From Verrucomicrobiota bacterium (GTDB taxonomy: Bacteria; Verrucomicrobiota; Verrucomicrobiia; Opitutales; UBA953), in contig VHCL01000004.1 of assembly GCA_016871725.1 (NCBI GenBank), positions 56,366 to 120,365 on the forward strand: a DNA stretch of 64,000 bases, written 5' to 3'. Both the position numbers and the translations under genes were made by a program. Every line of letters starts with the position of its first letter. The first letter of the stretch is position 1. Positions 18,557 through 21,363 of the stretch are shown here, one piece after another. The notes below the pieces were generated by a model, which did not search any database, had not been told where the DNA came from, and was given only the letters and a program-made list of their open reading frames with translations.

Positions 18557-20116
18557 TCAGGACAGCGCGTGGGCGTAGCCGTCGACGATCGCCTGCAGGG
18601 AGGCTTCGACGAGGTTTTCACTGACGCCGACCGTGCCCCAGGAGGCCTTGCCGTCGGAGGAACGGATGACGACGCGGGTCTTGGCCGCGGTGCCGTCGCC
18701 CCCGCCGAGGATGCGGACCTTGTAGTCCACGAGGCTGACCTTCGCGAGCTTCGGGAACGACTTCACGAGGGCCGAACGCAGGGCTTGGTCGAGGGCGTGG
18801 ACCGGACCGTCGCCTTCGGCGACCGTGAGGGTCTCCTTGCCGGCGATGCCGACGCGGACCACGGCTTCGCAATAGGCCGATCCCTTGGCGCCGCGCGCGG
18901 TGACGTGGTAGGAAGCGACCTCGAACGGCGCGGCCTTCGTCTTGCCGAGGTGGCGGCGGAGCAGGAGCGCGAGCGAGGCCTCGGCGTCCTCGAAGCTCCA
19001 ACCGCCGTGCTCGAGCTTCTTGAGCTCCTCGAGGGCGGTGGCGGTGGCGGGGGAATCGCGATCGAGGTCGATGCCGAGGGACTTCGCCTTGAGGACGATG
19101 TTGCTGCGGCCGGACTGGTCGCTGACGAGCACGGTGCGCTCGTTGCCGACGACGGTCGGGTCGACGTGCTCGTAGGCGGCGGAGAACTTGCGGACGGCGT
19201 CCACGTGCGTGCCGCCCTTGTGCGCGAAGGCCGCGGTGCCGACCCACGGGCGACGCGGGTCGGGCGCGAGATTGGCGACGCCGTCGACGAAACGGGACAG
19301 GCCGGCGAGGCCCTTGAGCGAGGTCGAGGAGACGCACTTCCAGCCGAACTTCAGCTGCGCGCACGGGATGACCGCGGTGAGATCGCAATTGCCGGTGCGC
19401 TCGCCGATGCCGTTGACGGTGCCCTGGACGTGCGAGGCGCCGGCTTCGAGCGAGGCGAGGGCGTTGGCGAGGCCGAGGCCGGCGTCGTCGTGCGTATGGA
19501 TGCCGACGGGCGTCTTCTTGAGCGCGGCGAGGGCGGCGCGGGTGGCCGCGGCGACTTCCGAAGGCAGGGAGCCGCCGTTGGTGTCGCAGAGCACCACGCG
19601 GTCGGCGCCGCCTTCGACGGCGGCGAGCATGGAGGCGAGGGCGTAGGCCGGGTCTTCCTTCCAGCCGTCGATCGCGTGCTCGCAATCGTAGACGACCTCG
19701 CGGCGATGGGACTTCAGGAAGGCGACCGTGTCGCGGATCATCTCCAGGTTCTCTTCGGGCGAGCAGCGGAGCACTTCGCGGACGTGGAGGGCGGAGGTCT
19801 TGCCGTAGATCGTGACGACCGGGGTGTCGACCTCGAGCAGGCCGCGGACCTGGGCGTCCTCGGAGGCGCGCACGCCCTTGCGGCGGGTCGAGCCGAAGGC
19901 CGCGAGCTTGGCATGCTTGAACTTCAGTTTCTTGGCGCGGGCGAAGAACTCGACGTCGCGGGGATTGGAACCCGGCCAGCCGCCTTCGATGTAGGCCATG
20001 CCGAAGCGTTCGAGCTCGGCGGCGATGCGCAGCTTGTCATCGACGGAGAAATGAATGCCCTGCCCCTGCGAGCCGTCGCGGAGGGTGGTGTCATAGATTT
20101 CGATGGAGCGTGCCAT
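18557..20116 (-). CDS. cimA: Citramalate synthase
   Basis: MARSIEIYDTTLRDGSQGQGIHFSVDDKLRIAAELERFGMAYIEGGWPGSNPRD...GTVNGIGERTGNCDL plus LeuA-type regulatory C-terminal domain. Confidence 0.93.
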   Translation of the reverse strand: MARSIEIYDTTLRDGSQGQGIHFSVDDKLRIAAELERFGMAYIEGGWPGSNPRDVEFFARAKKLKFKHAKLAAFGSTRRKGVRASEDAQVRGLLEVDTPVVTIYGKTSALHVREVLRCSPEENLEMIRDTVAFLKSHRREVVYDCEHAIDGWKEDPAYALASMLAAVEGGADRVVLCDTNGGSLPSEVAAATRAALAALKKTPVGIHTHDDAGLGLANALASLEAGASHVQGTVNGIGERTGNCDLTAVIPCAQLKFGWKCVSSTSLKGLAGLSRFVDGVANLAPDPRRPWVGTAAFAHKGGTHVDAVRKFSAAYEHVDPTVVGNERTVLVSDQSGRSNIVLKAKSLGIDLDRDSPATATALEELKKLEHGGWSFEDAEASLALLLRRHLGKTKAAPFEVASYHVTARGAKGSAYCEAVVRVGIAGKETLTVAEGDGPVHALDQALRSALVKSFPKLAKVSLVDYKVRILGGGDGTAAKTRVVIRSSDGKASWGTVGVSENLVEASLQAIVDGYAHALS

Positions 20117-20153
20117 GGTGGTGTGGGTGGGAAAGAGATGTAAAGGGAGGGGG

Positions 20154-20219
20154 CCGTTCCGGGCGCCGCGGAACGGGGAGTCGCCCGTCGGGCGTTCCGT
20201 TCAGCGGGCTTAGAGCCCG
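20154..20219 (-). promoter_or_regulatory. Overlapping alternative hairpins between leader ORF and cimA (candidate attenuator)
   Basis: Plus-strand inverted repeats: ccgttccg(20154-20161)/cggaacgg(20169-20176); the latter can also pair with cgttccg(20193-20199); separate cgggct(20205-20210)/agcccg(20214-20219) spans the leader stop codon. Confidence 0.5.
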
Positions 20220-20299
20220 ATGATGGTAATCATCGCCGGAATGATGGCACGACCGGCCGCGGAGCGGAGGGAGGTCGAAGACTGGGCCAGGGATTCCAT
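20210..20299 (-). CDS. Putative 29-aa leader peptide upstream of cimA (MESLAQSSTSLRSAAGRAIIPAMITIIGL)
   Basis: ATG at 20299 and TAA at 20212..20210; five Ile codons in the last 12 sense codons. Confidence 0.4.
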   Translation of the reverse strand: MESLAQSSTSLRSAAGRAIIPAMITIIGL

Positions 20300-20376
20300 G
20301 ACGAAGGGCCTGACTTCAAGGGCGGCGGCTCGGAGAGTCAAAGGCAAAGGAAGCCAGGGTCGGTCGAGGCTCGCCA

Positions 20377-21287: not shown

Positions 21288-21363
21288 AATCAACTGGACG
21301 TTCAGAAGGACAAAGCCCCCCTCCCCTGTCAATCCGACAAGGAAGGAGAGGCCAAAAAGGCCC

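Follow-up and report, generated by a model that had tools for sequence, protein, structure and literature searches.

The region upstream of cimA in the window (the whole stretch of DNA analyzed, 64,000 nucleotides) carries an element that we regard, with a probability of roughly 0.7, as an isoleucine-responsive, ribosome-mediated attenuator of cimA. A short isoleucine-rich leader and a set of mutually exclusive RNA folds would very probably turn cimA down when isoleucine is plentiful, and the helix of the off state most likely acts on transcription rather than on translation. We infer ribosome stalling, the direction of control and the transcriptional action of this helix from comparison of related genomes and from predicted folds.

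Leader peptide and promoter-like element upstream of cimA

The regulated gene (positions 18557 to 20116, minus strand) had been taken for cimA in an earlier, sequence-only reading of this DNA. The identification was borne out by a match of its product to the NCBIfam equivalog TIGR00977, (R)-citramalate synthase, that scored 647 bits (cut-off, 450 bits). CimA opens the threonine-independent route to isoleucine. The regulatory domain of the threonine deaminase IlvA was found in none of 18 genomes of the genus, so isoleucine synthesis probably has no entry other than CimA, which makes this enzyme a sensible point for isoleucine control.

The leader open reading frame (ORF), MESLAQSSTSLRSAAGRAIIPAMITIIGL (20210 to 20299, minus strand), starts with the ATG at 20299 and ends with the TAA at 20212-20210, 93 nt from the cimA ATG. 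Five of its last 12 codons specify isoleucine, as the sequence-only reading had stated. Given the 4.1% isoleucine in predicted proteins of the window's genus, such a count has a chance probability of about 7e-5. The frame and its isoleucine-rich end were also present in relatives. A covariance model of the element core built from the window's genus only (R1) was used to search 370 genomes of the order. The element was found before cimA in 44 of the 51 sampled genomes of the genus, which are freshwater Opitutales MAGs, and in no other genus among the 370. There is one copy per genome, with a second element-bearing contig in two genomes, and the R1 search of the window's own genome returned only the copy at cimA. 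Twenty-nine same-genus loci could be aligned from the promoter to the cimA ATG with the same layout. Every one of the 42 distinct leaders listed has three to six isoleucines in its last 12 codons (chance per leader, 0.012 to 4e-6), and divergent genus members keep isoleucine-rich ends, e.g., SDIIIIGL, ISKIIIIGG and RISAKITILGR directly before the stop codon.

The whole-region fold of the single sequence is only mildly more stable than that of shuffled sequences (z = -1.7), so evidence from one sequence alone would not be decisive. A chance ORF next to chance GC-rich hairpins, the latter a caveat of the sequence-only reading, would fit this z score. It is refuted by the comparative results, among them the recurrence of the same layout in 44 of 370 genomes of the order, all from one genus, and is hardly credible any longer. 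The comparison indicates that the leader, the stop-codon hairpin and the complementary segments are real. In the alignment of 29 loci, the length difference inside the isoleucine end amounts to one whole codon; the variable leader codons mostly change the amino acid, and the N-terminal part drifts. This pattern indicates that the isoleucine codons, and not the peptide as such, are conserved.

The drift bears on another explanation, in which the hairpins are of secondary importance and the ORF helps cimA by recruiting ribosomes or allowing reinitiation, or its peptide is itself active. A proposal that leader genes enhance translation downstream of them through reinitiation has been published (PMC4833913). 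In the window, however, the leader stop codon lies 93 nt from the cimA ATG, changes outside the isoleucine end are mostly amino acid changing, and there would be no explanation for exclusive helices that keep a fixed spacing to the stop codon. We consider this explanation very improbable.

A promoter-like element, inferred from sequence, was located at 20313 to 20341 (minus strand). It consists of TTGACT (20341-20336), a 17-nt spacer and TGAAGT (20318-20313) and ends 13 nt upstream of the leader ATG. The TTGACT box is present in all 46 distinct upstream regions, and the second box (TGRAGT-like, T..A.T) is present in about 43 of the 46 and is weaker in five regions; the distance from the element to the leader ATG is 8 to 13 nt throughout the 46 regions. 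Because of this short distance, the 5' end of the leader mRNA probably lies no more than a few nucleotides from the ATG, which would make the mRNA nearly leaderless, with a very short 5' UTR. The sequence-only reading had rightly missed a clear Shine-Dalgarno (SD) sequence. SD-like motifs before genes of the genus are rarer than their reverse complements (7 versus 23 of 129 and 3 versus 11 of 64), so their lack at the leader is normal here; the gene models behind these counts and behind the terminator statistics came from a simple ORF caller run on 460 kb, and the numbers are approximate. The sequence upstream of start codons in these 460 kb (from genomes G000 and G056) is C/U rich and G poor, and SD-like motifs are depleted.

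Leader peptides were not found before leuA or ilvB of the genus. At ilvB (loci L144 to L153), a short hairpin lies just before the ATG, with GCAGG/CCTGC in some loci and GCGGT/ACCGC in others, an apparent covariation, and some genomes carry long GGGGTA/TACCCC inverted repeats farther upstream. A second, differently built isoleucine leader precedes cimA in the Opitutales family f21 (L087, L090, L091, L093 to L095, L097 to L099, L102 and L103). Its peptides include GILIIISAQRIS, LGLIIGTLIIS and SALIDGDSLIIIS, each followed by the stop codon, at which a common ATTAGCTRAGGG-like motif is found; a helix GGGGCCGG/CCGGCCCC of these leaders is replaced by GGGATCGG/CCGATCCC in L094 and L099.

Conserved hairpins and mutually exclusive helices

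The leader stop codon lies in a hairpin, CGGGC-nnTRA-GCCCG (20205 to 20219, minus strand), formed by segment 1 and the 5' edge of segment 2, in which 99% of the alignment cells are paired and a C-G pair has become G-C, by a double change, in L074 and L075. The perfect 6-bp hairpin of the sequence-only reading exists in the window (CGGGCT-CTA-AGCCCG, 20219-20205), but only the outer 5 bp are conserved. Three further segments follow on the same strand. Segment 2, CCGC-T-GAACGG (20197 to 20207), is the 5' arm of the putative antiterminator. Segment 3, CCGTTCCGCGG (20166 to 20176), can pair with segment 2, through 10 bp, or with segment 4, CGGAACGG (20154 to 20161), the 3' arm of the terminal (off) helix. 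The sequence-only reading had proposed an 8-bp terminal helix, and this 3:4 pairing holds across the genus, in shifted form in L071 to L073. The 2:3 and 3:4 helices are each kept in 98% of cells, compared with roughly 20 to 50% for slid partners (25 distinct sequences). Between segments 2 and 3 lies an inner hairpin, CGCCC-GAC-GGGCG (20182 to 20194, minus strand), in which three of the four scored pairs have changed on both sides; double changes give TTGCCC/GGGCAA in L022 and GTGTC/GACAC in L075.

The three complementary segments of the sequence-only reading were thus recovered, but its antiterminator register, CGGAACG/CGTTCCG, occurs only in the window's closest relatives and was discarded. 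The conserved register pairs GAACGG (20202-20197) with CCGTTC (20176-20171) and CCGC (20207-20204) with GCGG (20169-20166). The CCGC:GCGG extension explains the conserved CGCGG that tops the 3:4 hairpin. Segments 2, 3 and 4 hardly vary, and the 2:3 and 3:4 helices themselves show no compensatory changes, as is expected where one segment must pair with two others. Lack of conservation in close relatives, which the sequence-only reading had named as fatal to its proposal, was not observed. Comparison of the related upstream regions revealed conservation of the isoleucine end of the peptide, both helices and the spacing to the stop codon; compensatory changes were confined to the stop-codon and inner hairpins. 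A pairing of leader GGTCGTGCC with ATGGCACG at the cimA start, seen by eye, has uncompensated breaks in L072, L074 and L075 and was dismissed as a coincidence.

The spacing of the element was compared with ribosome positions. GAACGG begins 7 nt after the stop codon (6 nt in three members) and 18 to 19 nt after the last isoleucine codon. At this spacing, the antiterminator arm would be covered by a ribosome at the stop codon but left free by one at the isoleucine codons. When 39 leaders were folded under constraint, with a 28-nt stretch masked to stand for the ribosome, placement on one of the last four isoleucine codons gave a mean 2:3 pairing of 0.76 to 0.86 and a 3:4 pairing of 0.10 to 0.19. 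With the ribosome on the stop codon, 2:3 pairing was 0.00 and 3:4 pairing was 0.79, an effect that in the model follows largely from the masking of segment 2. The ribosome-free leader was modelled as a mixture (2:3, 0.49; 3:4, 0.43), and only weak switching was predicted for a few members (L018, L074 and L077). End-product codons near the end of the leader and two exclusive helices that share one segment complete the picture. These results indicate a layout like that of an attenuator switched on by isoleucine starvation.

In the proposed mechanism, translation of the leader would start at once on the nearly leaderless transcript. With sufficient isoleucine, the ribosome would proceed to the stop codon, which lies within the CGGGC/GCCCG hairpin, and cover segment 2; segments 3 and 4 would then pair, and cimA expression would be lowered. 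With scarce isoleucine, the ribosome would stall on the isoleucine run, about 19 nt short of segment 2, and segments 2 and 3 would pair around the inner hairpin, block the 3:4 helix and allow cimA expression.

A homologous element in Pedosphaerales

A homologous element was found directly before cimA in Pedosphaerales (Verrucomicrobia subdivision 3), at loci L217, L220, L221, L235, L237 and L239 to L250. The genus-only model R1 reached L220 at an E value of 3e-5 and L237 at 1e-4 (3e-4 and 1e-3, respectively, over 169 kb). A second model, R2, built from five Pedosphaerales elements, revealed further elements in families f49 and f54, with the best matches before cimA. With the exception of L251, every R2 match with an E value below 1e-6 precedes a cimA reading frame; matches elsewhere with E values near 1e-4 were taken as ordinary terminators and left uncounted.

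Both forms share the core CGCTGAACG ... CCCCGTTCCGC ... CGGAACGG right before cimA and a leader ORF. The Pedosphaerales leader peptides, e.g., GSIIIAITISPDGRR, IPSLIASIIIGHPGR and MIRIRMIITAFQRR, each ending at the stop codon, are isoleucine rich in most members and contain few isoleucines in L217, L235 and L237. The Pedosphaerales form differs in its stop codon, which lies two codons later within CG(C/T)TGAACG, in its antiterminator arm, ACGAGTTTTC, and in its terminator, a strong U-tract terminator AAAACCCCGTTCCGC..GCGGAACGGGGTTTTT in which A/U pairs lengthen the helix and U's come after it. The Pedosphaerales stop position (CGC TGA ACG) is still visible in the window as an in-frame TGA two codons past the leader stop (20201 to 20203, minus strand), and TRA-NNC-CGC-TGA occurs in 36 of the 46 regions. 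The shared core, the mostly isoleucine-rich leaders and the classical U-tract terminator of the homologue indicate that the window carries a derived variant of a cimA attenuator of Verrucomicrobiota that has apparently not been described before. Pedosphaerales in which the attenuator is missing (L207 to L214, L218, L219, L226 and others) have TTTGC(C/A)-spacer-CGTAGAAA/GATA boxes before cimA, and many of them have a GC hairpin immediately before the cimA ATG.

CimA of the clade is 61 to 64% identical to Pedosphaerales CimA, compared with about 48 to 53% to the CimA of its own order, and in the CimA tree the clade stands beside Pedosphaerales, away from family f21 (support of 87 to 90 on the relevant branches). 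Although the branch is long, identities and tree position suggest horizontal transfer. CimA of the sister genus g23 nests among the leader-bearing ones. No leader is present there, and a promoter-like box lies about 10 nt before the cimA ATG, a configuration that indicates loss of the leader altogether.

The element could in principle be a relic, that is, an attenuator inherited with cimA whose terminator was lost in the genus and which is now a constitutive, non-regulating leader. The C's that replace the U-run of Pedosphaerales and the leader loss in g23 would agree with decay of this kind. On the other hand, segments 2, 3 and 4, the isoleucine codons and the spacings are near invariant while the flanks and the rest of the peptide drift, and compensatory changes maintain the inner hairpin. 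A relic is therefore quite improbable.

Off state of the proposed switch and relation to known attenuators

Segment 4 is followed by the tail CCCCCTCCC, a TTTAC box at +9 and a G-poor C/U/A tract that extends to the cimA ATG (20117 to 20153, minus strand). The first 8 nt past the 3:4 helix contain zero to three T's in the genus, and the warning in the sequence-only reading that a clean U-run is lacking applies genus-wide. In 42 of 43 members, segment 4 is followed at a distance of 8 to 10 nt by a TTT/TTA/CTAC box. The box keeps its distance to the helix and not to the ATG (box to ATG, 11 to 40 nt; helix to ATG, 21 to 49 nt). Its counterpart in the Pedosphaerales tail may be the distal ATTT; where that tail has its proximal U-run, the window's genus has become C rich. 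U-run terminators are used elsewhere in the genus, e.g., upstream of leuA. There (L127 to L138), a strong conserved U-run terminator, CCCACCCGG..CCGGGTGGGTTTTTT, follows a gene for a small basic protein, and the upstream region past it is pyrimidine rich. In the window, a terminator-like hairpin downstream of dapL (21316 to 21350) has a C/T tail instead of a pure U-run.

Rho was not found in 34 genomes of genus g1 (G000 to G033), in the well-assembled genomes G056, G162 and G150 or in the sister genus g23 (G127). Three other genera of the family (g22, g24 and g25) and the Pedosphaerales tested have it, as does most of the rest of the order. Rho thus appears to have been lost in the clade of g1 and g23, which rules out Rho-dependent termination through the C-rich tract. 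With neither a U-run nor Rho, neither known route of termination is evident for the off state. Since a U-run was looked for and not found, the genus element is classed as a variant that works like an attenuator, not as a plain member of the intrinsic-terminator class. The attenuator interpretation of the sequence-only reading is supported comparatively, without the antiterminator register that it had proposed.

The main rival to transcriptional action is that the same switch works on translation or mRNA stability, the 3:4 helix lowering initiation at cimA (because a standby site in the G-poor tract is lost) or altering mRNA decay. The missing U-run and Rho, the position of the helix merely 21 to 49 nt from the cimA ATG and the scarce use of SD sequences in the genus, where an unstructured 5' tract may matter, are in its favor. 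Yet the predicted accessibility of the cimA start is alike in both states (0.67 and 0.70 unpaired), which speaks against simple occlusion of the start in the off state; moreover, the distance from helix to ATG is not conserved, and the Pedosphaerales homologue is simply a transcription terminator. We regard translational or stability control as unlikely. For transcriptional action, the 3:4 helix would make RNA polymerase pause, or terminate without a factor, close to the TTTAC box. Our tentative and still doubtful proposal is that an inherited classical attenuator was rebuilt in a lineage that has lost Rho, so that the off-helix halts RNA polymerase with no U-run, through pausing or termination that depends on the hairpin and is linked to the TTTAC box nine nucleotides downstream. 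If true, this would be a mode of factor-independent termination not yet described.

A search of the window with Rfam 15 at gathering thresholds returned tRNAs only and no T-box, riboswitch or known leader; at the cimA loci, E values up to 0.1 yielded tRNA as well as miRNA matches, the latter far below their gathering score. The literature searched, in which most subscription papers are absent, contained nothing relevant on leader peptides in connection with citramalate synthase, with cimA or with Verrucomicrobia. The element would add a candidate isoleucine attenuator family for cimA in Verrucomicrobiota. It also offers an evolutionary series, from the U-run terminator of Pedosphaerales through the U-less form of a Rho-less Opitutales genus to leader loss in the sister genus, through which a stop of RNA polymerase without U-run or Rho becomes directly testable. 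The Streptomyces ilvB leader, in which codon mutants were reported to have no effect (PMC1262725), is a warning against attenuation inferred from sequence.

Leaders described in Actinobacteria include some without terminators (PMC1262725). Described leader peptides that are rich in the cognate amino acid and have no U-run terminator resemble the cimA leader in these respects; they also lack conserved hairpins, and Rho has been suggested for them, whereas the cimA leader has conserved hairpins and its lineage has no Rho. The ilvB-II motif of Corynebacterium (PMC10272879) shares a branched-chain leader peptide and alternative terminator and antiterminator stems with the cimA element, and the ilvB leaders of Actinobacteria (PMC1262725) share the branched-chain leader peptide. 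Both differ in the gene controlled and in terminators with U's, and no sequence relation was seen. The classical attenuators (trp, his, ilvGMEDA, ilvBN, thr and leu; theory in PMC1183508) have in common with it a leader rich in the end-product amino acid, a stop codon just before the antiterminator arm and two exclusive helices between which the ribosome position decides. In contrast to these, the element described here would control cimA from a nearly leaderless leader mRNA, in a genus with little SD use, through an off-helix without a U-run in a Rho-less lineage.
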